40,762 bases of DNA. It comes from Bacteriovoracaceae bacterium (GTDB lineage: Bacteria > Bdellovibrionota > Bacteriovoracia > Bacteriovoracales > Bacteriovoracaceae). The stretch's first letter is position 1. Each line of letters begins with the position of its first letter. The position numbers and the translations under genes were made by a program. The notes under the pieces were generated by a model. The model was not told the origin of the DNA and ran no database searches. It worked only from the letters and a program-made list of their open reading frames with translations. The stretch is from assembly GCA_023137315.1 (NCBI GenBank), contig JAGLPP010000101.1:1-40762 (forward strand), read 5' to 3'. Positions 4,705 through 37,461 of the stretch are shown piece after piece.

Positions 4705-5897
4705 TAAAGATCATATCCCCAATTGGCACCAAGCTCCTGTTCTTTCAGAACTTTCTTATAATTACCAACAGTGCTGCCAGCGGGATTCTTCCACAAAAGA
4801 ATATTGTAAATGACTCCTGGAATCCTGATCATTGATTTATATCTTTTAGCGGGTTTTGTGGCCGCCGCCACGGCATCTTTTTTTAAAAAACCATACTGTG
4901 CAAGACGATAGGAAACGGATGCCATGGACCAGAAGTGATAAGGCCGGAGCGTAAATGCCTGCATCTGCTCATCGCTCAATCCGTCGGTAATATTTCTCGG
5001 TAAAAGTTTTCCCGATGAACAGGTCTTTCCGTATGTTTCCATTTTTAAATAAATCTCGCTGGCATCCTTTATGGCCCGGAATTTTTTATTAAATTCAGCA
5101 GGAGACATGTTTTGTTCCATCCATGCCTTGAAATCGCGTATAAGATAAAGGCGCTGGGAACCAAGAACACCGAAAAGATCCATTGCAAGTTCCACATTCC
5201 CTCCACTACAACGAATCGCCATATCAAAAACGTTATCATTGCAATCGTAGTGGTCAATATTTTTTAAAACACATCCGGCAACTTCAGCAATGTTTGTATG
5301 CTCCAATCTTGAAAAAGCAATCTGCGGCATAATGCTTGAAAAAGGCGTCCTCGCCATAAGAATATCATTCACGGCCCTTTTCAAAGTTCCGTAGGAACCC
5401 TGCAGGTTAAATGGTTTTATTATCTTTTCCATGCCGGAAAACTTTTCGCTTCCAAGAGCAATGAACTCCGAAAGGGACATCCCCTTCAAGTCCCTTCCAG
5501 ACCATTCAGGATAATCTGTTTTTGAATTATATGAGAGAGTATCCATCCAGTCTGCGTAAAGCTCATCGCGAAAGTTCAAAAGATACAACATGTAATCCCG
5601 CTCACTTCCACTAAAAAATCTTCTGTAATCATCCCCTTGTTCAAAATAGATCACAAAATCAACAAAAAGAAAGCGGTTATGGGAGCACATCTCCCCTGTG
5701 TCGGCATTTCCAGCAATCCTTACGGCATCAATAAAATCACGCGCCTGCCCGGAATTGATGAGTTTGGTGATTTCCCTTTTCATCCCTGAATACTTCAATG
5801 GATATTTTGTAGGAAGAAGCCTCTTTTCACAGAACGCATCCGCAAAAACGCTTTTTGAAATTAAAATCAAAAATAGCAAAATAAAAATATATCTCAT
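4695..5897 (-). CDS. Exported protein of unknown function
   Basis: I do not recognise this protein. It starts with a clear Sec signal peptide (MRYIFILLFLILISKSVFA) and continues as a mostly helical, soluble-looking chain of about 380 residues with several cysteines that could form disulfides in the periplasm. A longer start at 5921 is possible but adds nine polar residues before the signal peptide; the internal ATG at 5897, preceded by AGGAATGGCGG, is preferred. It is transcribed after the exported 494-residue protein, with a 33-bp gap. Both proteins have a similar block near the C-terminus (FWSMASVSYRLAQYGF here, YHYMTASLLAYEVKRAGY there), which suggests distant relatedness. No catalytic motif was found. 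Confidence 0.75.
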   Translation of the reverse strand: MRYIFILLFLILISKSVFADAFCEKRLLPTKYPLKYSGMKREITKLINSGQARDFIDAVRIAGNADTGEMCSHNRFLFVDFVIYFEQGDDYRRFFSGSERDYMLYLLNFRDELYADWMDTLSYNSKTDYPEWSGRDLKGMSLSEFIALGSEKFSGMEKIIKPFNLQGSYGTLKRAVNDILMARTPFSSIMPQIAFSRLEHTNIAEVAGCVLKNIDHYDCNDNVFDMAIRCSGGNVELAMDLFGVLGSQRLYLIRDFKAWMEQNMSPAEFNKKFRAIKDASEIYLKMETYGKTCSSGKLLPRNITDGLSDEQMQAFTLRPYHFWSMASVSYRLAQYGFLKKDAVAAATKPAKRYKSMIRIPGVIYNILLWKNPAGSTVGNYKKVLKEQELGANWGYDLYYD

Positions 5898-5930
5898 AAT
5901 ACCGCCATTCCTGTTCTCCATGGTATCTTT

Positions 5931-7415
5931 CTAATGGCCTCTTCTAAGCCGTCTCAACCTTCTTTTCCTCATAAGACGACGCCGCTCCAATCTTCTTTGT
6001 TCTTTTTCGTATTCTGGAGTGCCTGGAGTCTTTTTCAACCTTTCAATATGTTTTTTGGCGCATTCAACTCCAAGTTTTCCACCATATCTCCCGGCCTTGA
6101 CTCCGGTTCTATAACCTTGCCGCTTAATAATATCTACAACGTAAGAAATTCCGTCTTCCTTGATCCTGTCCTTCTTCAAGGCCTTTAAAAGTTTATGTGT
6201 CTTGTAGGCCACCTTTGATAAAATCGCCATCAAACGTGCCGTAACCGATGAGTAACCTGCCCGTTTCACCTCATAGGCTAAAAGTGAGGCAGTCATATAG
6301 TGATAAAAGCCGGGATTGCGCTCAAACTTGTGGTAGGGAAAAACATCCTGCAAATACTTCTTCGATAAAATGTCCCTGATATCCCGAAACTTCCAAAAAT
6401 AAGTCTCAAGCAACATGGCCTTCAGTGGTTTTTCACCGTATTGAACATCAAGCGAAGGCATGTTTCTGGTGGAGTATGCCAGTACATAAATTGCGTCCCG
6501 CTCGGAGAAACCGGCCCTCACGGTTTTATTTATAACAAATGAAAAAAATGGAAAATGGACAAGGTTCTCATTCCTTAGTCTGAGCCATTCACTCTCAGCA
6601 TCGTAAACAACCTTTAGAACCTCCTCAAGATAATCAAGTTTGAGCAGCTCATCATAAACGTATAACGTGAAACCATTGATGGAAAACTGACGTCTTGGAA
6701 ATGCCGCCTCCGCCGAAGATATTTTCTGGTTCAGCTTTACAAGTTTTTTACATCCAATCACACATATCTTCATGGCCTTTGCTTCAAGATCACTTATTTT
6801 CTTTACAACAGAACAGGTTTCCTCCTTCCTTCTATATTTATTAGCGGCATCACTCACGTTCTCACGAAAGTAATCATTAGCGATATAGTACCCCTTTATA
6901 TTGCGCTCAAAAAACTCCATCGTTTCCCTGTAGCGATCATGGGCCGGGGTGAGCGATTCAAGTGGAATTGCTGCCCCTTCACCATCAACCCGCGTCCATC
7001 CACCAACAGGTGGAACAGTACTAACAAGTCCATCGCAATAAGCTTCAAGCTCGGGACTCATGGCCTCCAGATAGGACTTTAATGAAATCGAAAGATCAAT
7101 ATCCATTTCCGGATTGGAATTCAAAATTTCTTTATAAATTTCTGCCGGATGATCTTCACTTTTACGAATTTTTTTAACAAGAGGATACCCCAACACCGGA
7201 GATGTCGGCTCAATGATCCTTTTGTGTTCTGGATTTTCAAGTACAAACTGCACTGGAGACAAACTTTCCCTTGCCTCTCCGAGCGCGGCAAATGGTGCGG
7301 AAAACAACCCATTACGCTCCAACAAATCTTCAAAATTCCTATTTGGCTGCAATGCCCCCAGGGCAATACATGGAAGTAATACCGTAAAAACCAGGATCGT
7401 TTTTTTCAGCTTCAT
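5931..7415 (-). CDS. Exported protein of unknown function with strongly basic C-terminal tail
   Basis: The family is not recognised. An N-terminal signal peptide (MKLKKTILVFTVLLPCIALG) predicts export. The mature chain is about 475 residues, helical in character, with conserved-looking aromatic patches around residues 290-420. The last 25 residues are almost all arginine, lysine and leucine, ending in RLRRLRRGH, and could bind nucleic acid, lipopolysaccharide or other polyanions; this is inference. It is the first gene of a two-gene minus-strand unit with the 400-residue exported protein. It is divergent from the response-regulator-like gene across a 169-bp promoter region. Confidence 0.75.
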   Translation of the reverse strand: MKLKKTILVFTVLLPCIALGALQPNRNFEDLLERNGLFSAPFAALGEARESLSPVQFVLENPEHKRIIEPTSPVLGYPLVKKIRKSEDHPAEIYKEILNSNPEMDIDLSISLKSYLEAMSPELEAYCDGLVSTVPPVGGWTRVDGEGAAIPLESLTPAHDRYRETMEFFERNIKGYYIANDYFRENVSDAANKYRRKEETCSVVKKISDLEAKAMKICVIGCKKLVKLNQKISSAEAAFPRRQFSINGFTLYVYDELLKLDYLEEVLKVVYDAESEWLRLRNENLVHFPFFSFVINKTVRAGFSERDAIYVLAYSTRNMPSLDVQYGEKPLKAMLLETYFWKFRDIRDILSKKYLQDVFPYHKFERNPGFYHYMTASLLAYEVKRAGYSSVTARLMAILSKVAYKTHKLLKALKKDRIKEDGISYVVDIIKRQGYRTGVKAGRYGGKLGVECAKKHIERLKKTPGTPEYEKEQRRLERRRLMRKRRLRRLRRGH

Positions 7416-23751: not shown

Positions 23752-24855
23752 CTATTGCAAGCTGGCCTTCCCACCAAAGAATCCATCGAATTCATAAACA
23801 TTTGGTGAACCGTATTCTATCCCGGCAAAATCACTTTCAAGAATATCGATAAGCTTCCACTCCCGCTCAAACACTCCAACCCGAATCCTTTTATAAAGTT
23901 TCACTGTCATGGTCCCGGTCAGTGTTTCATAATCATGAAATATCTCTCCATCGGGAGTCATAAATTCAAGATCCATAAACTCCTCTCTCGGTGCCCAAGC
24001 AGAAACTTCGATTTTATGAGTACCATTGGTAGCCTTCACTTCCCATTTTCCAAAGTTCACATCCATCTTCACGCGAGCAAAATAATTGGGCCTCCATAAA
24101 TACTCTTTTCCATTGTGATTCAAGCCGATTGAAACACCCTTGACCGAGGTCAGACGATTCAGCACTTTTGGCCAACCTCCACCAATTGAAATAGTGGTAT
24201 CAGGATGTCCCTTGAAATGATTTGAAACAATCCACGTCCACCAGGCGGGAAATGAGCGTCCCCAGTTTCGATCCTGATAGCATGGAACATTTTCAAAAGT
24301 TGTTGGTTCCCCGTTTCTTTCAACAGTACCCGTACATCTGGCATCGGCCTGGGCAACATACCATTCGATATTGGTAACACCGTATCCCAACAGCCATCCT
24401 ACGGGATTATATGTCCAACGCTTGTTATAGTTGATATCCCATTTGTAACGAACACCGTCTTTTTCAACATCACCGATAATTCGTTTTTCCGTGGCCACAT
24501 TATCACGAATCGCAACGTATGTTTCGATGTAGCTTGCCTCAAAATCACTGACGGGAAGATGCTTTTCAATGATAAACTTTCTGTTGAAATCGCCCATTGC
24601 AACGACGGACCGGGTTCCTCTCATTGTATTATCTGTATCCCACGGATTAACAACACCATAACAGAAAAAATAATTCTCTCCCGTATTTGGAATAACAATC
24701 TTGTAATACCACCACTCGAACCACGGTCGCATGTCAGCCTCACCGTTTTCACGAAGAACATTTTTTCTGTTGTATCTGTAAGTATTGAACTGATCCACTT
24801 CGGCATAAGCAGTAATGGAGACAAGAACCAGTAACAGTATTGAAATCCTTTTCAT
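23752..24855 (-). CDS. Exported tocopherol-cyclase-like protein
   Basis: After a signal peptide (MKRISILLLVLVSITAYA), the protein follows the plant tocopherol cyclase (VTE1) pattern. It has FEWWYYKIVIP near residue 46 and YQDRNWGRSFPAWWTWIVSN near 193-212. It also has ISIGGGWP, KWEVKATNGTHKIEVSA, and a final LIDILESDFAGIEYG. VTE1 has the corresponding FFEGWYFKVSIP, YSEKNWGGGFPRKWFW, TAENETHLVELEA and LDVTSNMAAVEVGGG, as I recall them. The fold is a lipocalin-like barrel for large hydrophobic molecules. The plant enzyme closes the chroman ring of tocopherols; in this exported bacterial form the substrate is unknown, and a quinone or other isoprenoid lipid is a guess. AAGGAAGG precedes the ATG. 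It is divergent from the AOR gene. Confidence 0.78.
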   Translation of the reverse strand: MKRISILLLVLVSITAYAEVDQFNTYRYNRKNVLRENGEADMRPWFEWWYYKIVIPNTGENYFFCYGVVNPWDTDNTMRGTRSVVAMGDFNRKFIIEKHLPVSDFEASYIETYVAIRDNVATEKRIIGDVEKDGVRYKWDINYNKRWTYNPVGWLLGYGVTNIEWYVAQADARCTGTVERNGEPTTFENVPCYQDRNWGRSFPAWWTWIVSNHFKGHPDTTISIGGGWPKVLNRLTSVKGVSIGLNHNGKEYLWRPNYFARVKMDVNFGKWEVKATNGTHKIEVSAWAPREEFMDLEFMTPDGEIFHDYETLTGTMTVKLYKRIRVGVFEREWKLIDILESDFAGIEYGSPNVYEFDGFFGGKASLQ

Positions 24856-24990
24856 AATACCTTCCTTGGAATTAAGTCTTAATTATTCAAATTGTATCTG
24901 AAAAAATTCAAAATGGAAAAGATCGCATTCACCTTTTTCCTATGAATGACACATGTGCTTTTGTATAATTTTAAAAAAAAGGAAGATTTC

Positions 24991-26901
24991 ATGACAAGTA
25001 AATATCAAGGGATTACAGGCAAATTTCTGGAAATCAACCTGACTACCGGGGAAATTAACGACTACAAAATACCCGACCTTGATTATAGATTATTCCTTGG
25101 CGGAAAGGCCCTTGCTGCAAAAATTCTTTGGGACAAACTTATGCCAAGAGTAGATCCTCTCGGGCCACACAATATCATGGTGTTGTCCACGGGACCTTTA
25201 AACGGTAGCAGCGCGCCACAATCAAGTCGTTTTAACATCTCCACAAAGAGTCCACTATCACTTGGAATAACCTCCTCAAATTCCGGCGGTGATTTTGGGA
25301 CAACACTAAAAAAGTCAGGCCTTGACGGCATTATCTTAAAGGGTAAGGCCGATATTCCAACATGGATCGAAATTATTGATGGCAAGGTCACGCTCAGGGA
25401 TGCCGGCCACATTTGGGGAAAAAACACAGAAGAAACCATATATGGAATCGATAAAAAAACGGCTTCCTTATGCATAGGCCCTGCCGGGGAAAATATGGCC
25501 CGATTCGCCTGCATAATGGCAGGAACACGGGCGCACGGACGTGGCGGCGTTGGTGCCGTCATGGGGTCAAAGAAAGTTAAATTGATTACCGTAAAAGGAT
25601 CGGAAAAAATCAGTTATCATGACCGGGAAGGGTTCAAAAAAAGCGTCAAAAGCTGGACAAAACTTTTAAAAAATAATTCCATAACAGGAGACAAGCTACC
25701 CAAATACGGAACCAGCGTTCTTATGAACCGTTGCAACGACACAAACACCCTCGGCACACATAACTTCAAATACAGTACCTTCAAGGACGCAGACAAGGTA
25801 AGCGGTGAAACCCTTGAAAAAAATCATCTTACAAAAAACTGGGGATGCACCACCTGTCCCGTTCGATGTTCCCGTGAGGTCAAATACAAAGACGGCGTTA
25901 TCAAGGGGCCGGAATTTGAAACCATGGGCATGTTTGGGCCAATGATTGAAAATACCAATCTGGATGCCATTATCGAATGGAATTATATTTGTGACCTTGT
26001 GGGTATGGACACCATCACCGCAGGATCAACAATTGCCTGCGCCATGGAATTAAAGGAATTGGGCCTGTGGGATGATTTTCCTGCAAGCTTTGGAAAAACG
26101 GATCACATAAGTGGTCTTCTCTATGACATCGCCTATAAGAGAAATCATGGAAAGCTTCTAGCCGAAGGAAGCATGCGCCTTTCCAAACAATTTAAAAGAG
26201 ATGATCTCGCCATGCATTCCAAAGGCCTTGAATACGCCATTTATGAACCAAGAGGAGCAGTTGGCCACGGACTGGGATATGCAACGGCCAACCGTGGAGG
26301 TTGTCATTTAAACGGCGGCTATTTGATTTTTCTTGAGGCCTTGGGACCTCTTACAATCGACCCTCTAACCGATCACGCAAAACCCGGGCTTACAGTTATG
26401 AATCAAAATCTTTTTGAGGCCATCTCCGCATCCGGAAATTGTATTTTTTCCTCTTACATCATTTTTCCAGACCTTCCCGGATTTATAACGAAGGGCCCGA
26501 TAAAATGGATAATAAGCGAAGTTACCAAACTTTCACGCTTTTTTCTCAATTTTCTTGGAAGAATAAGACCGTGGATGATTCCAATCAATTTTTATCGTAT
26601 TCCACACAGCAAGGTATTGGCACAACTTACAGGAATGAAAATGACTCTTGGAAATTTTCTGGCCGTAGGAGAACGTGGTTTTACGCTGGAAAGACTTTTA
26701 AATCTCAGAGAGGGACTTACGTCAGAGGACGACTCTCTTGCCCCACGACTGACCGACACACCGGCACAACCTGGCAATCCAAAGACATGTGTTCCCTTGA
26801 AGAAAATGCTTCCCATTTATTATAAAACCAGAGACTGGGACCACAAAGGAATTCCAACAAAAAGACTCTTGAAAAAGCTCAAGATGGATTTCCTACTGTA
26901 G
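24991..26901 (+). CDS. Tungsten-type aldehyde:ferredoxin oxidoreductase family protein
   Basis: AOR enzymes oxidise aldehydes to carboxylates (or the reverse) with a bis-pyranopterin tungsten or molybdenum centre and one [4Fe-4S] cluster, using ferredoxin. The N-terminal domain has the family start (GKFLEINLTTGEI, RLFLGGKALAAKIL) and GPLNGSSAPQSSRFNISTKSP. Cluster ligands are C286, C289, C293 (CTTCPVRC) and C484 (SGNC), close to C288/C291/C295/C494 of Pyrococcus furiosus AOR. The length of 636 residues is in range. AAAAGGAAG precedes the ATG at 24991, so the longer ORF start at 24946 is not used. No separate ferredoxin-like subunit or cofactor gene is adjacent. The specific aldehyde cannot be predicted. 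Confidence 0.9.
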   Translation: MTSKYQGITGKFLEINLTTGEINDYKIPDLDYRLFLGGKALAAKILWDKLMPRVDPLGPHNIMVLSTGPLNGSSAPQSSRFNISTKSPLSLGITSSNSGGDFGTTLKKSGLDGIILKGKADIPTWIEIIDGKVTLRDAGHIWGKNTEETIYGIDKKTASLCIGPAGENMARFACIMAGTRAHGRGGVGAVMGSKKVKLITVKGSEKISYHDREGFKKSVKSWTKLLKNNSITGDKLPKYGTSVLMNRCNDTNTLGTHNFKYSTFKDADKVSGETLEKNHLTKNWGCTTCPVRCSREVKYKDGVIKGPEFETMGMFGPMIENTNLDAIIEWNYICDLVGMDTITAGSTIACAMELKELGLWDDFPASFGKTDHISGLLYDIAYKRNHGKLLAEGSMRLSKQFKRDDLAMHSKGLEYAIYEPRGAVGHGLGYATANRGGCHLNGGYLIFLEALGPLTIDPLTDHAKPGLTVMNQNLFEAISASGNCIFSSYIIFPDLPGFITKGPIKWIISEVTKLSRFFLNFLGRIRPWMIPINFYRIPHSKVLAQLTGMKMTLGNFLAVGERGFTLERLLNLREGLTSEDDSLAPRLTDTPAQPGNPKTCVPLKKMLPIYYKTRDWDHKGIPTKRLLKKLKMDFLL

Positions 26902-26923: not shown

Positions 26924-29900
26924 TTATTTATCCTTATTCCTTACCTTCTTCTTAACCTTTTTCTTCTTGAAAAGCTTTTGGAGTGCCGAGCGTATATAGC
27001 GAGCTGAAATAACATCAAAGATTGAAACCGAGTCATCCTTTACGATTTCACTGGCACTGTCCTCATACTTGGCAAGCTGTTCACCCTGATCATAATTTGT
27101 ATCATCAACCGGTTCGGAAGGTTCGGCCTGTTTATTTTCCTCGTCATCAAAAAATCCCTTACTGGATTTCTTTTTCGATGACACCACTGCTGATTTCGAC
27201 CGCCTCTGCTTCATCTGTTTGTTCCATTTGGCAAGTTCCTTCTTTCTGGCCTTGATATTGAGCTTGAACGCCTTGCCTGCAGACCCGGCATTATATCCTT
27301 TGTCAGCCAGGGCCTTCACCGTATTTGCCTTAAGCTGCTTGATGGCATTATCATGCAGAGACTCGAAATCAATCGGTTTTTCTCCAACCTGTTTGAATTT
27401 TCTATTGAGAAGCTTTTGTAAATTCCTCAGTTTCTTTGATAAAACAGCGTGCTTCTTTCCAAGACCTGATACAGACTGCATGGTCGCCGCCGAAAGCTTT
27501 TTTCTGCCTTGAATTTTATTACCAACGGAACCTACGGCCTTGACGTCATTCAAAATATCAGAACCTTTACCAACACTGGACATTCCAGCAATCATCTGCT
27601 TATCGGAAACATTTGACATTTCCCCTGTAACTGAACTGCAATTTTCCGTTATACACGGGGTTTGGGCATCCAGTTCGATACCACTTGATTCTCCACCACC
27701 TCTTTTGACTTTTACCTCACTATAGCCTGGAGCATGTGCTTTAACGGAAACCTCGGTGGATGAATAATCCTGTCCGGTGTAATCACCATCATAATCTTTT
27801 CCAGTCCCCTGTCGTTCACCTATCTGCGCAAGAATCGCATCAATTTTCTTGATTTGTTCTTTAACCTTTTCAATATTCCTTTGAGTTGTTCTGGACGCGA
27901 TAATTATAAGGGTTGAAATAATACCAAAAATAATAGCGCGTTTTGAATACGTCGCCATGTATGTATCAATAAATACGGTCTGGGTTGCCTTTGTGGCATA
28001 ATAAAGAACAAGTGCCACAACTCCAAGGCCAAGAAGTTGTCCAATCTTTCCTCCGCCAAAAGCATGTGCCCCCGGAACCAACAAATCAAATCCCTTGCGG
28101 GCCGCAACCTTCAATATACCTGACATACCAGTCTGCATTTCCCGGCCACCTTCCGTCTCATAAGCATCTTTAAGGGCGAAATATTCATCAGCTCCCATGG
28201 ATTCAATTCTTCCATTCATCAGTGCCATTTTTTCATGGGCACTAACGTACTCATCAACATTGTTCACTTCACCGTGATCCACTACGATATCAAAACGCCT
28301 GATACCGGTATCGGCTAGAACACCCTCTATGGCCTCATTCTCATTATAGTCTGGAGCAACAAGTCCTCCAAACATTGGCGCAAGCTCCTTTTTCACCATC
28401 ATAAATTTTTCATGCTCCCCGCGCATCTTCCAATAATCATCAATTTGTTTTTCTATCGGATGTTTCTTTACAACCGTGGACGATGCAGTAGGAATCTGCA
28501 GGTTGGTACATCTGTTTAACGCCTTTCTTACCCGGTCATAATAAAATTGACATGAAAGTCTCCCCTTGGCGGCACAAATAAGCTTGTATGAAGTGGCCTT
28601 TCCAGAGGCAGCAAGTTTCGCATATAATGCGGCCGCTTTAGCTTTATCCTTCGCTGTATATGACGCATCTGTTGCTGCCGCTGCATAAACCTTTGGTAAA
28701 ATAAAATCAAAAATCGAGCTTTGTGAGTCCTCTACTTCAATATCGTATTCGTATTCATATTCATCCTCATTGGATTTATCCCCACTATTATCCTGTATCC
28801 CCTCTTCTAGAACCTTTCTCTGATATTCGGTTTTTGGTTTAACCTTTTCACCACTGTCCGACTTGAAACCAGAAGTACCATGGGTATCTGCTTTTCTCAT
28901 CTCGGAGGTCTGCTCCTTGTTTTCCTTGCTTCCGCCAACCATGCCCAAAAGACCAAAACCAAGCGCACCTGCCGCAATCATTTTCATCATACCGCTGCCG
29001 CCTTGTTTTGCGACCGATCCAGCACCTTCCTTTGACAAGTCCTTTGCTCTTGACGCTACAATCTTCGCGGTATCTGCAATACTTTGTCCGCAGGCATTGT
29101 AAAGCGATGTCATCATGATATTCGACGTAAGAGCTATTGTATCAGCATTTACATCCGAAAATGTGACCGCTTTATCCAGGGCCGTAAGATTCGGAAGGGC
29201 CACCCCCATTGCAGATACCGCAGCTGCACTACATAAACCAAGCTGTATGGACGCTAAAGCACATCCTGTCGGACAACTCGTATAAACGGTAAGTGGAAGG
29301 CCTGCACCGGTCTCAAGTCCAACAGTCATACGACATGATTCCATTGCAGCCTGACAAGCGGCAATAGCAGGAGCGCAATCAACAGAACAACTTATGGCCT
29401 TCAAACAAATCCCGGATGCCGTCTTACACGTTACCACTCCCGTCTTGCAAAAAGCAGCGGTCGTTTTCAAACCCGACGCACAGGCCATTTTTGAACCTGT
29501 AACAATCAAGTGACCTGCGGTTGCAAGTCCTGCCGCAGATAAAAATGCGACCGAGGCTGCTTTTTGGAATTTCAGTTTACTCTCCAGACCGGCCACGACC
29601 TCATTATAATTTTTCCTTTGCTCTTCCAAGGCCGTTTTGTCAGCGTCGACTATAACGCCATTTTCGTCCCTTTCGTATGTGATTATCCTGGACTGTGCCT
29701 CCTTGAATTTGAAAAATGACATGATTTCGCCGATGACGTATGCAGTCCCGCCGACAGCAGCTGCGTAGGTATCCAGCGTTTTTCCACGACAACGAATCAT
29801 GGATGCGGCAACCACGCCAACCGCAACAGAAGTAATAAATTCCATAATACCGGCACCGCCGGATGAAGCCTTGTCAAGCTTTTCGGTTTCCATCCCGGCA

Positions 29901-30013
29901 TAGGCTGCATTTACCGGTGATACATTAATCAGCCCAAGTGGAGTCGTCACCATCTGGACATGAAGCAAGGTAAAAACCATCAAAGCAGTAATAAAAATTT
30001 TTGACACCTTCAT
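26924..30013 (-). CDS. Large membrane/exported protein C of a three-member paralogous cluster (1029 aa)
   Basis: No known family was recognised. A signal peptide ends near SPVNAAYA (residue 39). The N-terminal block has IRCRGKTLDT (73-82), two hydrophobic helices and IVDADKTALEEQ (121-132). A cysteine-rich stretch (residues 178-261, over ten Cys) follows. The 15-residue motif C-x2-Y-x6-K-[SA]-L-N-[KR]-C is at 488-502, PGAHA is at 647-651 before two hydrophobic helices, and a coiled coil lies at 711-730. PCITENCSSV, a GRKKLSAAT...LNRK block and the C-terminal VSIFDVISARYIRSAL (996-1011) complete it. It is about 370 residues longer than its two paralogues, mainly between residues 310 and 640, including an acidic DEYEYEYDIEVED stretch. 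It starts 17 bp after gene B, so it is probably cotranscribed. See findings. Confidence 0.78.
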   Translation of the reverse strand: MKVSKIFITALMVFTLLHVQMVTTPLGLINVSPVNAAYAGMETEKLDKASSGGAGIMEFITSVAVGVVAASMIRCRGKTLDTYAAAVGGTAYVIGEIMSFFKFKEAQSRIITYERDENGVIVDADKTALEEQRKNYNEVVAGLESKLKFQKAASVAFLSAAGLATAGHLIVTGSKMACASGLKTTAAFCKTGVVTCKTASGICLKAISCSVDCAPAIAACQAAMESCRMTVGLETGAGLPLTVYTSCPTGCALASIQLGLCSAAAVSAMGVALPNLTALDKAVTFSDVNADTIALTSNIMMTSLYNACGQSIADTAKIVASRAKDLSKEGAGSVAKQGGSGMMKMIAAGALGFGLLGMVGGSKENKEQTSEMRKADTHGTSGFKSDSGEKVKPKTEYQRKVLEEGIQDNSGDKSNEDEYEYEYDIEVEDSQSSIFDFILPKVYAAAATDASYTAKDKAKAAALYAKLAASGKATSYKLICAAKGRLSCQFYYDRVRKALNRCTNLQIPTASSTVVKKHPIEKQIDDYWKMRGEHEKFMMVKKELAPMFGGLVAPDYNENEAIEGVLADTGIRRFDIVVDHGEVNNVDEYVSAHEKMALMNGRIESMGADEYFALKDAYETEGGREMQTGMSGILKVAARKGFDLLVPGAHAFGGGKIGQLLGLGVVALVLYYATKATQTVFIDTYMATYSKRAIIFGIISTLIIIASRTTQRNIEKVKEQIKKIDAILAQIGERQGTGKDYDGDYTGQDYSSTEVSVKAHAPGYSEVKVKRGGGESSGIELDAQTPCITENCSSVTGEMSNVSDKQMIAGMSSVGKGSDILNDVKAVGSVGNKIQGRKKLSAATMQSVSGLGKKHAVLSKKLRNLQKLLNRKFKQVGEKPIDFESLHDNAIKQLKANTVKALADKGYNAGSAGKAFKLNIKARKKELAKWNKQMKQRRSKSAVVSSKKKSSKGFFDDEENKQAEPSEPVDDTNYDQGEQLAKYEDSASEIVKDDSVSIFDVISARYIRSALQKLFKKKKVKKKVRNKDK

Positions 30014-30030
30014 AGCTCATCTTCCTGTTT

Positions 30031-32010
30031 TTATTTTTTCTGTTTTTCTTCAACTTTATTTTTTTTCGTCCTGCTGTCAAACACCTTCTTGAAAGCGGAA
30101 CGAATATAACGATTAGAGATAATACTCCAAATTGGAACATTTTTTTCCTGTATTATATCACTACCACCTGTCTCATAACGTTCAAGGGCATCTGCCATGG
30201 AGACATCACCATTCTTGACATCATCATGATCAAGCGGCCCCTTCTCGCTCTTTTTCTCTTCATCAAACAAACTTCCAGTTTTTTTAACTCTCTTCTTTTG
30301 ATACTTCACATTTTTTGCAACTTTCACTTTTTTTACCAAACTCTTGTCGGATATTGCCTCACCTTTTGCCTTGTCATTCGTCAAAACAGAGGTGGACGAA
30401 TTTGGACTGTAACCGGATTCACTGATGGCCAGAGCTGCCTTTTTATTAATTGCGGCAACAATCTTGTCGCTCGCACCAAAATCAAGTACTCCACCGCCAC
30501 CATTTTTTTTAATCATTTTATTATACGCCTTTTGAGCACGTTTAAAAGCATCGCGAACGGCCTTACTCTGACTTCCAAGTTTGGCCACACCACCAAGAGT
30601 TGCTGAAGACAGTTTCTTTTTCCCCTGGATGGAATCTGCTGTTTTCGATGTCATTCTGGCCGCTCCAAGAAGTTTTGATCCTGATGAAGTTGACACCATG
30701 GAATTTACAACCTCTTCATCGGCAGAGCGGTTAAGTGCTGTCGAAACGGACGAACAGTTCGGTGTAATGCATGGGATGCTTTCAGGAAGAACCATGTCTC
30801 CCGAGGTCGTTGGCACGGTGTACAGGTTTGTAGAAGAAGCTGATGTTCCTCCTGTGTTTCCACCATAAGAATCATCATCAAATTCTGAATCAATACCTCC
30901 GGTTTTGTCACCAACGCTGGCAAGAATATCATCAATTTTCCCGATCTGTTTTTTCAGATCGTTGATCTTTTTGCCTGTTTCCTTTGAAGCAAGAAGGGCC
31001 AGTGCAGCCATTGCGCCAAATACATAAACACGTTTTTCATATGTCGCCATATAGAGATCAATAAAATTCGCCGATTTTGCCTTGACTCCCATATAAATTC
31101 CAACACCAACAGCACCAAGACCTATCATTGATCCAAGACTTTTCCCTGTGAAAGCACATGCCTCTGGAAATATCAGTTTAAACACTTTGCGAAGGGCCGT
31201 CCCTCCACTGACTGTATTGGTTGCGCCAGTACAACGATTCAACGATTTTCCAAGTTTTTGCGCATATAACTCACAACTGGTCACCGCTTTCATGGCACAT
31301 GAACTTGAAAGACACTGCTTTATCTTCGCACTCAACATAATTACATTTGACTGAATCTCATTACTTTTGACGCTGGATGGAGAATGTGTTTTTGAGACAT
31401 ATTCAATTTTCGCAGCAGTGGCCTGGGTACTGCTGATTCCTTCCAAACAAGCAGCAACAGAAGCGTTACCGCTGGAAGCTTCAGCACCACAAGATGCCGT
31501 GGCTGCATTCGCAGCTGCAAGACAACTGGCCTTCGCCTTGACCAGTGACATCTTTCCCCAAATAGCCAGACCGGCAGCGGCCGTAAATCCGGCTGCTGCA
31601 GCATTTTGAAAATTTTTCTTTGTCTTAATGGTTTTCATTGCATTCAAAAGGAGTCTTCTCTCCTCCAAAAGGGCCGTTTTATCAGCATCAATAAGAATCC
31701 CGTTTTCATCATAATTGTAGCTGATTGTTTTTTGCTGAATCTCCTTGAACTTTAAAAATGTGATTATCTCACCAGCAACAAAGGCACCACCTGCCGCCGC
31801 TGCCACCAAGGTATCCGAAGTCTTTGTTCTGCACGAAAAGAAACCCCTTGCAACCGCAGCTATGGCAATCATTGTGATAGTACTCATCAGATTACCGTCG
31901 GAGGCTTTTTGCCCCTCGTAAACTCCCATCGTATCCGCCGCATATATCCGTACATTCGTAAGGGTGAATACCAATAAACAAGTAGTAATCAATCTTGTAA
32001 GTTTTTTCAC
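30031..32010 (-). CDS. Large membrane/exported protein B of a three-member paralogous cluster (659 aa)
   Basis: The product starts with GTG behind a GGGG-rich Shine-Dalgarno region and has a signal peptide ending near RIYA (about residue 24). Shared motifs are FSCRTKTSDT (58-67), FKFKEIQ and LIDADKTALLEE (106-117). The cysteine-rich middle holds CELYAQKLGKSLNRC (246-260). FPEACA (281-286) precedes a pair of hydrophobic helices, and IGKIDDILASVG lies at 356-367. CITPNCSSV (414-422), GKKKLSSAT (463-471) and the C-terminal VPIWSIISNRYIRSAF (625-640) follow. No enzyme motif is seen. The gene is flanked by its paralogues, 59 bp after gene A and 17 bp before gene C, so one transcript is likely. The function is unknown; a membrane complex or cell-envelope assembly is a reasonable idea but is not shown. 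Confidence 0.78.
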   Translation of the reverse strand: MKKLTRLITTCLLVFTLTNVRIYAADTMGVYEGQKASDGNLMSTITMIAIAAVARGFFSCRTKTSDTLVAAAAGGAFVAGEIITFLKFKEIQQKTISYNYDENGILIDADKTALLEERRLLLNAMKTIKTKKNFQNAAAAGFTAAAGLAIWGKMSLVKAKASCLAAANAATASCGAEASSGNASVAACLEGISSTQATAAKIEYVSKTHSPSSVKSNEIQSNVIMLSAKIKQCLSSSCAMKAVTSCELYAQKLGKSLNRCTGATNTVSGGTALRKVFKLIFPEACAFTGKSLGSMIGLGAVGVGIYMGVKAKSANFIDLYMATYEKRVYVFGAMAALALLASKETGKKINDLKKQIGKIDDILASVGDKTGGIDSEFDDDSYGGNTGGTSASSTNLYTVPTTSGDMVLPESIPCITPNCSSVSTALNRSADEEVVNSMVSTSSGSKLLGAARMTSKTADSIQGKKKLSSATLGGVAKLGSQSKAVRDAFKRAQKAYNKMIKKNGGGGVLDFGASDKIVAAINKKAALAISESGYSPNSSTSVLTNDKAKGEAISDKSLVKKVKVAKNVKYQKKRVKKTGSLFDEEKKSEKGPLDHDDVKNGDVSMADALERYETGGSDIIQEKNVPIWSIISNRYIRSAFKKVFDSRTKKNKVEEKQKK

Positions 32011-32069
32011 TCGTTCATCCCCATATTTTTTTAATCTCTTTTCAATAATAATATATTAAACCGTGGATG

Positions 32070-34031
32070 CTACTTGCTGATCTTTTCTCCAAGCCTTGGA
32101 AAGGCAGTCCTGATGTATCTAATACTGATAATTTTCCAGATCGGCACGCTCTTGTCATTACTGATATCGCCTGCCTTGTATTCCACTTTCTCCAATCCTT
32201 TTTCAGAACTTTCTTCTTCAAATTTGTACTCCGCAACAGGTTTTTCCGCAGCGTCTTCAAAATTAAAATTCATGTCATTATCCGCCGCCTTGGTTCTTGC
32301 CTCCACTGTCTTCGGACCGGAGATAGACTCTTTATGTTGCGTATCACTCTTCTCTACATCGTTCTTTGCAACAATACCGGCACTCATACCACCACCAAAA
32401 AGTTTTGCCGCCTGTCCGCTTGTATAACCGGCCTTCTTGATGGACTTCGCTGCAGACAATCTAAGCCCGTTCTCAATAGCGGCAATTCTTTTATCAAACT
32501 CAACAGGCTTGTCACCTGCACCAACTATTCTCTTGTTAAACTTTCTTTGCAGCTCACGAAGTCTTTTGGAAAGGGCATTGTGCTCCCCCCCAAGTTTTGC
32601 AGCAGAATTCAAAGTGGCCTTGGAAAGCTGTTTTTTTCCACTCAGTCCATCACCAAGTGTCGCCGTTAGATTGGCCATGTCGTTTACACCGCCACCCATG
32701 GAGACCATATTTTCGGCCAGTCCAGGATCAGACGTTCTGGCGTTCTCCAATTCTTTCGTAGGCACTCCAATAGTGGGTAATTTTCTGTCCAAACCAACAT
32801 CGCCGTATTCAACCGGCAGCGAATACTGCGAGCCATCGGCCGTTTTAATAGCGGCCGTACCGGCCTTCGCTTTTACTGTACCAAGAATCTCTTCGAGCTT
32901 TCCTATATTGCCATCCAAAGTCTTGATTACATCCATTGAGGCCTTTGCGGCCTTGTATGAAAGAGCGGCAAAAGCCGTGAAAAGCAGTCCACGATGAAGT
33001 GGCTGAGCAATCATTCTGTCTGTTTTCGTGGCCTGCACCACAGTCACTCCACGGCAAACAGCAAAAGCAACCACTCCCATTCCAAGAATTCCAACATTCT
33101 TATCCATCGCCCACGCGTTTGGAATAAACAGATTCGGAAAAAACCTCAAAGCATCATCAAGAAGACGCCCCCTTTCATCATTATCGTTCGATGAAAATAA
33201 ATTGGCGGGATTATGTATTGAATCAGAGCATTTATTAAGCGATTTTTTCATCTGCTCGTAATATGAAATACAGACCGACTTTACATTGGACGCACACGAA
33301 GCAGCTGAACATGATCCGGCCATAAGTCCACTTTCACCCTCCTGTATATAGGTAACCAGACTCTGGGAATATTTCGTCGACGGCATTTGTGTCGGCGATA
33401 CGAATTTCTCCCATAGTGACATGTTCCGGGGCCTTGCTGCCATAAGAGAAGCCGAACACATGCAGCTATTACCAGGATCACTCGAACCACACATGGCATC
33501 ACAAGCACCTATCGCCGAATCGGTAGCGGCAGAACATGACTCTTTCTCGATATTCAATTTATATGTGTGATAAAGGGCAACCATCGCTGCGCCAGTAAAA
33601 GCAGCCGCTGCGGCCATCTGCAGAGTACGTTTCATTTGAGCGGTCTTTTTAATTTCCTCGTAATTCTGCTTCTCCTTTTCCAGCGTGGTTTTATGAGCGT
33701 CAATCAACTTACCATCCTCATCACGGGCATATTCAATGGCCTTCTCTTCCGCCTCCTTGTACTTCATCCAGGCGAAAATCTCACCTGCCATGTAGGCAGC
33801 TCCACCAACGCCCGCCAAGATTGTATCAGGAGTTTTTAACCGGCATCTGATCATTGATTTGGCGACTGCCGCCGCTGCCAGCATGGTTATAAAATCCATA
33901 AAATTATCGGAGGTGGTGCTCTCACCATGAAAAGTACCATCCTTGTAGGTTTCATCTGCAGAAAATGTTTGCATGGGCCCGATTGAGACCATTGAAAAAA
34001 CCATTAATGAAACGAATATTATTTTTCTCAC
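32070..34031 (-). CDS. Large membrane/exported protein A of a three-member paralogous cluster (653 aa)
   Basis: This is the promoter-proximal gene of the cluster; it starts with GTG after AAGGAAGGG. It has a signal peptide (MRKIIFVSLMVFSMVSIGPM). IRCRLKTPDT lies at 61-70, AGVGGAAYMAGEI at 73-85, and KLIDAHKTTLEKE (108-120) is the charged loop. Cysteines at 166-192 and 241-268 include CISYYEQMKKSLNKC (254-268). FIPNAWA (302-308) precedes two hydrophobic helices. IGKLEEILGTV (376-386), GKKQLSKAT (465-473) and the conserved tail VPIWKIISIRYIRTAF (629-644) complete it. Most of the chain is polar, helical and Lys/Glu-rich, and residues about 545-625 look disordered. Membrane topology cannot be settled by eye. 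No known family is recognised. Confidence 0.78.
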   Translation of the reverse strand: MRKIIFVSLMVFSMVSIGPMQTFSADETYKDGTFHGESTTSDNFMDFITMLAAAAVAKSMIRCRLKTPDTILAGVGGAAYMAGEIFAWMKYKEAEEKAIEYARDEDGKLIDAHKTTLEKEKQNYEEIKKTAQMKRTLQMAAAAAFTGAAMVALYHTYKLNIEKESCSAATDSAIGACDAMCGSSDPGNSCMCSASLMAARPRNMSLWEKFVSPTQMPSTKYSQSLVTYIQEGESGLMAGSCSAASCASNVKSVCISYYEQMKKSLNKCSDSIHNPANLFSSNDNDERGRLLDDALRFFPNLFIPNAWAMDKNVGILGMGVVAFAVCRGVTVVQATKTDRMIAQPLHRGLLFTAFAALSYKAAKASMDVIKTLDGNIGKLEEILGTVKAKAGTAAIKTADGSQYSLPVEYGDVGLDRKLPTIGVPTKELENARTSDPGLAENMVSMGGGVNDMANLTATLGDGLSGKKQLSKATLNSAAKLGGEHNALSKRLRELQRKFNKRIVGAGDKPVEFDKRIAAIENGLRLSAAKSIKKAGYTSGQAAKLFGGGMSAGIVAKNDVEKSDTQHKESISGPKTVEARTKAADNDMNFNFEDAAEKPVAEYKFEEESSEKGLEKVEYKAGDISNDKSVPIWKIISIRYIRTAFPRLGEKISK

Positions 34032-34208
34032 GATACCCTTCCTTGTCTGAATTACTGTCCACCTATAACCATTCTAATCCAAGAAATGGAACTTTACCTC
34101 AAAAACAAATGGATATTTTGTAAAATTAAGTGGTTATATCAAATTTTCAGTCCTCACCAAATGAACTTTTACTGCCAATTTTTGATGTCAGTTAACTTTT
34201 GGACGTGT

Positions 34209-34226: not shown

Positions 34227-35195
34227 ATGAAACTAAAACTGAATTTACTGACCTTTTTTCTTATAGTTATCACCGTGTCCAACGCTGTTGCAGATGAGCT
34301 TGTTTTTGTTCAGGCCATCTCAAACACGAGAAAAAGATTCATTATAAGCAGAGGACTCGAACATGACATCTCTATCGGACAAACAAGGGCGTTCTCCAAC
34401 GATAGCGTTTCTGTCATGTGTAAAGTCCTTGAAGTTGGCAGGGATAATTCCTTGTGGCAGGTCGTTGACGGACAAACTGCAGTCCCCTTCAAGCGTGGTG
34501 ATACAGTTTTATTCCACACACATTTAATGGATATCATGAAGGAGGTCCTCAAGGAAAAAGAACGCCGTAGAGTGGAAAAACTGGTTGAAAGTGGCCGAAT
34601 TGATTCACTAAGAGATGAGGAATCCGGAAAATACATACGAATGACCAAGGCCGTAAGACGCCCCAACTTTATTATTCGAGGGGCAATGGCCCGGGCCGTC
34701 TATCAATCCGTAAGCTCCACCGATTCATCCTCAACCTCCTCACGCCAGGGGCTACACCTTGAAGGTCTTTATACAAAACAGTTTATCAATCGTCGTTTCG
34801 ATTGGGGAATCGGTTTCAGATGGGATCGTGAAACAGAGGAAGTATCCAGTCAAAATATCATAATCCCCACTGATCGAAAGATGGTTATCACGGAATTTGT
34901 CTATAATTTTGATAAATTCAGGCAAACCCTTAACAACATCTATATGGGAGTCGGATTCGGAGCTGGACAAACCACATCCACCGTTGACATCGAAAATAAA
35001 AAAGGAATCGTACTGGCCATGCCGTATGCCAAATTCGGCCTTCTCAGCCATCTTGGCGGTGAATATTACCTCATTATCGAAACTGTCATCGAATCGCTGA
35101 TATCAAAGGAAAAGTTTCTTGAAACCGGAAAAGAACAATCATCCAGCATTCTCAATGGCAAAATTGCAGCAGGACTTCGCTTTAACATCCTTTAA
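34227..35195 (+). CDS. Exported, possible outer-membrane protein of unknown function
   Basis: A signal peptide (MKLKLNLLTFFLIVITVSNAVA) is followed by a small beta domain (about 23-100) with the pattern of an SH3- or FlgT-C-like module: RFIISRGLEHDISIGQTRAF, then KVLEVG, FKRGDTVLF. The second part (about 150-322) has alternating hydrophobic/aromatic strands (RFDWGIGFRWDRETEEV, NIYMGVGFGAGQTTS, ILNGKIAAGLRFNIL) typical of an outer-membrane barrel. The last residue is Leu rather than the usual Phe. The gene is divergent from the large paralogous cluster and could act with it. The longer ORF from 34086 adds residues without a signal peptide and is rejected. It overlaps the end of yggS by 4 bp. 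Confidence 0.7.
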   Translation: MKLKLNLLTFFLIVITVSNAVADELVFVQAISNTRKRFIISRGLEHDISIGQTRAFSNDSVSVMCKVLEVGRDNSLWQVVDGQTAVPFKRGDTVLFHTHLMDIMKEVLKEKERRRVEKLVESGRIDSLRDEESGKYIRMTKAVRRPNFIIRGAMARAVYQSVSSTDSSSTSSRQGLHLEGLYTKQFINRRFDWGIGFRWDRETEEVSSQNIIIPTDRKMVITEFVYNFDKFRQTLNNIYMGVGFGAGQTTSTVDIENKKGIVLAMPYAKFGLLSHLGGEYYLIIETVIESLISKEKFLETGKEQSSSILNGKIAAGLRFNIL

Positions 35196-36574: not shown

Positions 36575-37297
36575 TCACCTGGCAAGTTTTAACTCAAGAA
36601 ATTCATGTGCCTTTTCCGATAAAAATCCGGCCGGAATCTTTTCAACAATAGTCCGCGTAAAATCCAATTTTTTCTCATCCACGTTTTTATCAACCTCAAA
36701 GGTGAACTCATCTTCGGTTGATAAAGGTGTATCCATATCACGTGAACTGAGTATCTTTCCGGTTCGTATCCCTTTGCCATCTTCCCATTCGACAAATTGA
36801 CGCATGAAAATCACCTGAAACTTCGAAAACTCATGATCGTTATGCTGCCAGACAAAAACCTCAATCTGGCCGTCGGCACGAAGCCAGTACGTCAGGTTGG
36901 CCGGAAATTCAATATCAACCAACGTTTCATGTATTGGACGCATGCTCGAAATAATATTATCAATTGAAAGAAAACATTGAATCTTATTCTGAAAACTTTT
37001 CTCCTTGCTAAAGGCAATTCCCAAACAAGGGCCACTCACCCATTTCACTTTTCCACTCGCCTGCAAATTCAAACCACGCCAACGCAAGTCACCTTTTATT
37101 TTTGATCCCGTGACATATTTATGCCCTCCGTCTCTGAGAGACAATTGCATCCCTGAATGTGATATATCCTTGACTTCAAAAACCTTGTCCTTGTCACTAT
37201 CCCCCTTAAAGGTCAAATAACTGAACGGAAAACGTGGAAAAACCCTTTTTTCAGTTTCCTTAACATCAGACTTGATAAGACTTAGCTCTCTTTCCAT
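36575..37297 (-). CDS. PilZ domain c-di-GMP-binding protein
   Basis: PilZ domains bind cyclic di-GMP. The two binding motifs are present: RVFPR (18-22, RxxxR) and DISHSGMQL (44-52, (D/N)xSxxG). The end of the PilZ domain is near GIAF (93-96). Residues about 105-240 form a second domain of unknown family with tryptophan-rich strands (LTYWLRADGQIEVFVWQHND). The ATG at 37297 has GGGAG six bases upstream, so the longer start at 37309 is not used. It is the first gene of the PilZ-RatA-small-yggS run and divergent from pgsA across 164 bp. Confidence 0.85.
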   Translation of the reverse strand: MERELSLIKSDVKETEKRVFPRFPFSYLTFKGDSDKDKVFEVKDISHSGMQLSLRDGGHKYVTGSKIKGDLRWRGLNLQASGKVKWVSGPCLGIAFSKEKSFQNKIQCFLSIDNIISSMRPIHETLVDIEFPANLTYWLRADGQIEVFVWQHNDHEFSKFQVIFMRQFVEWEDGKGIRTGKILSSRDMDTPLSTEDEFTFEVDKNVDEKKLDFTRTIVEKIPAGFLSEKAHEFLELKLAR

Positions 37298-37461
37298 GTA
37301 TTCTCCCACTCAAAGATAAAAGGATAGATATCACCTCCTAGGATATCGAAATTCAGGTGTCATTATTAGACGGAAAAAGCGTCCTTTTTTTGACGCCATG
37401 CCACTATACTTACAATTTTACTTTGTTTAAATATGTGTTCACGGTTGAGCAGGAGCGAAAA

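Follow-up and report, generated by a model that had tools for sequence, protein, structure and literature searches.

The closest described counterparts of the proteins reported here are the cargoes of the T9SS C-terminal domain, PEP-CTERM, GlyGly-CTERM and MYXO-CTERM systems, which combine an N-terminal signal peptide with a conserved C-terminal tag and comprise several unrelated proteins per genome, encoded by scattered genes. In precursors of the VirB2/TrbC-type pilins of type IV secretion, an A-x-A cleavage site precedes a hydrophobic hairpin containing a basic loop. Signal peptidase I sites are marked by alanine at −3 and −1 with a bulky residue between them at −2, and by proline at −5, and in viral polyproteins signal peptidase cuts at internal sites. 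The C-terminal degrons known from the periplasm consist of short hydrophobic ends. We analysed a 40,762-nucleotide stretch of DNA from a Bacteriovoracaceae bacterium (hereafter the window), in which a tandem array of three genes encodes large exported proteins resembling the tagged cargoes in their C-terminal tail and the pilin precursors, in layout only, around an internal site.

The three genes lie on the minus strand and are separated by gaps of 59 and 17 bp: gene A (653 aa; 32070–34031), its paralogue B (659 aa; 30031–32010) and the longer paralogue C (1029 aa; 26924–30013). These positions and sizes agree with those given by a sequence-only reading of the same DNA that preceded our analysis. 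The paralogues are about 32% identical. A matched B with an E-value of 4e-64, the N-terminal part of C with 7e-29 and the C-terminal part of C with 3e-23, so the likeness is far beyond chance. In the three-way alignment all motifs listed by the earlier reading were found in identical order in A, B and C. A signal peptide comes first, then hydrophobic segments around a CRxKTxDT motif, a (V/I)DAxKTxL motif, a further hydrophobic stretch, which is weaker in B than in A and C, and a Cys-rich region; these are followed by a PxAxA motif, a hydrophobic segment or hairpin, a G(K/R)KxLSxAT motif and a tail with RYIR(S/T)A. In A, the hydrophobic segments span residues 43–61, 71–89, 136–154 and 308–335, and the Cys-rich region residues 166–268, between the signal peptide at the N-terminus and the tail at the C-terminus. 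The description of the three as paralogous exported proteins with hydrophobic segments is thus supported. The proteins are probably mostly helical, long helices being predicted at low confidence; an AlphaFold model of A from seven sequences had a mean pLDDT of 39 and was unusable.

The proteins had been said to belong to no known family, and this was borne out by searches of Pfam, NCBIfam, PHROGs and the PDB, which gave nothing significant; the PDB likewise gave no match for a profile of 48 family members. TrbC/VirB2 models were absent among the matches listed (25 of 65 weak families) in a Pfam scan of these 48 members, and no viral relatives of the family were found. An assignment to the SLATT 2TM effectors was rejected, as SLATT_1 reached 11.2 bits against a cut-off of 26.3, and in A only. 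A profile of the trio gave hits in 33 of 59 related genomes, and these hits fell within a single GTDB family. With the profile built from the 48 members (A2), the family was detected in 124 of the 129 genomes of the window's order and in 46 of its 48 genera, Halobacteriovorax marinus SJ included, and in none of about 169 genomes from other families when 241 genomes of the phylum were sampled. On these searches, the A/B/C family is a new, order-specific protein family that appears to have expanded within the order of Halobacteriovorax. Its members range from about 520 to 1805 aa and are single, paired or arranged in arrays of up to four; most are single, and homologues do not always occur singly, since arrays of two to four were found in several genomes. 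The genus g18 carries an array of four beside a related barrel gene, the first gene of this array being the best partner of A and the third that of C; identities are only about 30%, indicating that the array is old.

The last part of the family profile is its most informative part. Column identity is about 50% in the C-terminal tail versus about 12% over the whole proteins, and the tail follows the consensus [SN]-[IL]-[FW]-x-[IV]-[IV]-[ST]-x-R-Y-x-[KR]-[ST], with R in 98% and Y in 99% of sequences, percentages obtained with a selection pattern that permitted some alternatives but favours both residues. Two tail-only profiles were used. The first, A5, has 32 columns without padding and was run on whole genomes, after which the loci were read; the second, A7, has 21 columns with one row padded by one residue, and A5 gives a like picture within the order. 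The tail profile matched the tail of A (VPIWKIISIRYIRTAFP; 32091–32183, minus strand) with an E-value of 2.1e-16, that of B (VPIWSIISNRYIRSAFK; 30079–30174, minus strand) with 5.2e-14 and that of C (VSIFDVISARYIRSALQ; 26969–27064, minus strand) with 6.3e-13. Over all loci read, 104 tail proteins of 228–1805 aa were gathered. In all 104 open reading frames of at least 200 aa the tail lay within 50 aa of the C-terminus (median 9), with 0–50 residues beyond it. A crude signal-peptide test was passed by 95 of the 104 tail proteins versus 195 of 402 neighbouring genes, and most of the tail proteins that failed have N-termini resembling real or lipoprotein signal peptides, or lie in truncated frames. 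That the tail forms an amphipathic membrane helix was not supported at 100 degrees (mean z 0.07). Since the tail shows no clear amphipathic helix, recognition by a protein is likelier than membrane binding. The tail might instead act on stability, as a periplasmic degron or protease-targeting or processing site rather than a sorting signal, a function suggested by its being short, linear, strictly C-terminal and borne by exported proteins. We regard this as quite unlikely, since a tail with a fixed R-Y core and 0–50 further residues behind it is unlike the short hydrophobic ends of known degrons.

The tail also occurs on open reading frames left unmatched by the full-length family profile. Most of the tested genomes of the order carry it on about 4–11 large open reading frames each, always at the C-terminus. 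In the window's own genome it is present on A, B and C and on proteins of contigs C45 and C75, with a weaker form on contig C142. The array had been described as a trio. The three neighbouring paralogues are real, but because C45 and C75 carry further family members and C142 another tail protein, the set is not merely a trio. In the genera g32 and g4, the full-length family is absent and tail proteins are present. When the tail was stripped from the 104 proteins, an all-against-all comparison divided them into more than 15 clusters without detectable similarity, and a tail-free family profile matched none of the other tail-protein classes. One tail protein of H. marinus SJ (4928–7279 of locus L097, corresponding to about 1098.9–1101.3 kb of G002 C1) is an L,D-transpeptidase (YkuD_2, E-value 1e-46) with a long linker; relatives that share the transpeptidase part occur in long frames in other genera, and one of these (G007 C5) ends with a tail match. 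The C-terminal half of this H. marinus protein is related to another tail-protein class, of the L102 type.

By these comparisons the tail is modular, and its presence on unrelated exported proteins scattered over the genome suggests that it acts as a C-terminal signal common to them. The sequence-only reading had taken the conserved tail and membrane segments to suggest that the three proteins form one complex as its subunits. In such a membrane complex the tail would be the assembly interface among A, B and C. Tandem paralogy, the like layout and the array order kept in g18, with A first and C third, are in keeping with such a complex. The tail, however, is found on many proteins that are unrelated to one another and on genes that stand alone, it is present in families without any A/B/C homologue, and most members of the A/B/C family itself are single. 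A dedicated complex is therefore unlikely, and the step from a conserved tail to subunits of one complex is not supported as stated.

The distribution of the tail extends beyond the order. The A5 profile also matched the families f12 and f2; after these had been added to give A7, matches appeared in f8, f19 and f22. The matches in f8, f19 and f22, obtained with a profile containing no sequence from any of them, were C-terminal, within the last 50 aa of exported proteins, which have signal peptides, some of the lipoprotein type. At least one tail protein was found in 11 of 13 genomes of f12 and 13 of 35 of f8, two families in which the tail is present and the A/B/C family absent. No tail was found in any of the 35 genomes of the Bdellovibrio family (f6), B. 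bacteriovorus HD100 and Tiberius included, indicating a low false-positive rate of the search. The families f3 and f11 are likewise tail-free. In f12, an exported family of about 300 aa recurs (loci L117, L118, L130, L131, L134, L135, L136 and L137) with an N-terminal Y.C.G.DG.PI..G...CC motif and an A/B/C-like tail on a protein unrelated to A/B/C. Also in f12, two different tail proteins (about 450 and 720–775 aa) lie adjacent to each other among identical housekeeping neighbours (L116, 4452–8207; L133, 4130–7645).

A second shared feature lies inside the A/B/C proteins, where a hydrophobic-P-x-A-x-A sequence resembling a signal peptidase I site stands ahead of the hydrophobic hairpin. Alignment and motif counts place it at FIPNAWA|MD in A (33108–33122), IFPEACA|FT in B (31153–31167) and LVPGAHA|FG in C (28061–28075), all on the minus strand. 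P-x-[ASTGV]-x-A occupies the aligned position in 28 of 51 members versus 5% of windows drawn at random from these proteins; LLIPSAQA|, LVFPKAHA| and FIPNAWA| are typical forms in the family. The preferred residues are P at −5, A at −3 and −1, and H, Y or E at −2; alanine at −1 is common to the internal site and the proteins' own N-terminal signal peptides, as far as a site finder that itself favours alanine can indicate. Because the stretch just upstream often holds D, G or K, this stretch is a weak signal sequence, and the proline is absent in some members. These counts are simple motif counts, preferred to a statistical signal-peptidase matrix that, once trained on neighbouring genes, had shifted into the hydrophobic core. 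Gene C has an additional sequence, FILPKVYA|AAA, at about 28658–28711 of the window (residues about 435–452), which resembles another signal peptidase I site.

The surroundings of the array and of other tail genes were also read. Divergent from the array on the plus strand is a gene for an exported protein of the predicted outer-membrane-barrel type (34227–35195), whose N-terminal domain comprises about 75 aa. This barrel-like neighbour had been noted before; it is exported and real, but it likely starts at 34227 rather than at 34086. The barrel gene has relatives next to the arrays of g18 and, in H. marinus, at a distance of about 3 kb from a tail gene. Its N-terminal domain resembles one at the end of a further exported barrel protein that is encoded near tail genes (hhalign E-value 4e-5 in one comparison, with a probability of only 44%). 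As a general rule, a role of the barrel gene as a fixed partner was rejected, because in 12 genomes the majority of barrel-family genes are distant from tail genes, which makes the link between barrel and tail a loose one. On its other side, the array is flanked by divergent genes for an exported Pfam Tocopherol_cycl protein and an aldehyde ferredoxin oxidoreductase (23752–24855 and 24946–26901). The window also encodes a PilZ-domain protein (36575–37309), and a protein that begins in a similar way (MER.L.LIK.D...TEKR.FPRFPF; L098, 13448–14001) is encoded about 3 kb from an H. marinus tail gene. Exported FecR-domain proteins stand directly behind a gene of one orthologous group of the family in two loci (L093, 10564–11493; L094, 2590–3675). 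In the loci read, tail genes share no common operon and are scattered among housekeeping genes, and neither a receptor nor a processing enzyme was found.

Another orthologous group adjoins a VanY-type D,D-carboxypeptidase in seven loci (L055, L065, L066, L067, L068, L077 and L078); in L067, L068 and L078 a YaeF/YiiX-type C92 amidase is also near. Such nearby cell-wall enzymes, VanY among them, would suit a role in predation, in which the hairpins would be pore- or translocon-like and delivered to prey in the manner of type III translocators, with the tail as the release or delivery signal. The hydrophobic segments, the low-confidence long helices and the presence of the predator H. marinus SJ in the order are compatible with this idea. 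On sequence grounds we consider it very improbable, because the tail is absent from B. bacteriovorus HD100 and Tiberius and from 33 other genomes of their family, and because searches of A, B, C and their family against Pfam and the PDB gave no homology to translocators.

Taken together, the data point to the tail as an undescribed address label that is read by some part of the cell envelope. Our preferred reading, to which we give a probability of roughly 0.52, takes A, B and C to be envelope proteins that are exported by Sec and probably processed at the internal site, with the tail serving as a recognition signal for a putative envelope partner. The proteins would be exported by Sec through their N-terminal signal peptides, and after export signal peptidase I may also cut at the internal site, so that the chain would yield a Cys-rich N-terminal fragment and a C-terminal fragment starting with the hydrophobic hairpin. 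The tail would then be displayed on the periplasmic or outer side, where one common putative envelope component would bind it and sort, dock or retain all proteins that bear it. The tandem array would accordingly be an old local set of such clients and not a unique complex. A broader and more tentative possibility, which we think less probable than not by a clear distance, is that the tail belongs to an undescribed sorting pathway in part of Bdellovibrionota, in which a dedicated receptor acting after Sec would direct a range of proteins, cell-wall enzymes and internally cut hairpin proteins among them, to a specific site or surface; in predatory Bacteriovoracales this could be a predator-specific structure.

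Should the tail prove to be a sorting signal, one machine would place 4–11 large proteins in most genomes of the order, the motif would be a direct handle on that machine in the cultivable predator H. marinus, and about 100 unannotated envelope proteins would be labelled at once. With the internal site, the idea that signal peptidase I cuts one bacterial chain twice can be put to the test.

We found no account of the SIF..IS.RY tail or of the A/B/C family in the literature, and curated models of the T9SS C-terminal domain, PEP-CTERM and GlyGly-CTERM in NCBIfam and Pfam did not match A, B, C or other tail proteins. Like the T9SS and CTERM tags, the tail combines an export signal on nearly all bearers, a position at the extreme C-terminus and cargo that is otherwise unrelated. 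CTERM tags, however, contain a transmembrane stretch and a basic cluster, both of which are missing from the tail sequences and from the hydropathy of A, B and C, and the T9SS tag is an Ig-like domain, whereas the tag of the tail proteins is a short linear motif with an R-Y core. The internal site and hairpin of A, B and C follow the layout of VirB2/TrbC-type pilin precursors, but the site comes only after about 280–650 residues and a long C-terminal region stands behind it. Viral polyproteins share with A, B and C a signal-peptidase-I-like site inside an exported chain; A, B and C differ in being bacterial and in usually having one internal site per protein, at which cleavage is proposed from the motif. 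Judged by its sequence features, the tail seems to work like a C-terminal sorting tag that belongs to none of the known ones tested.
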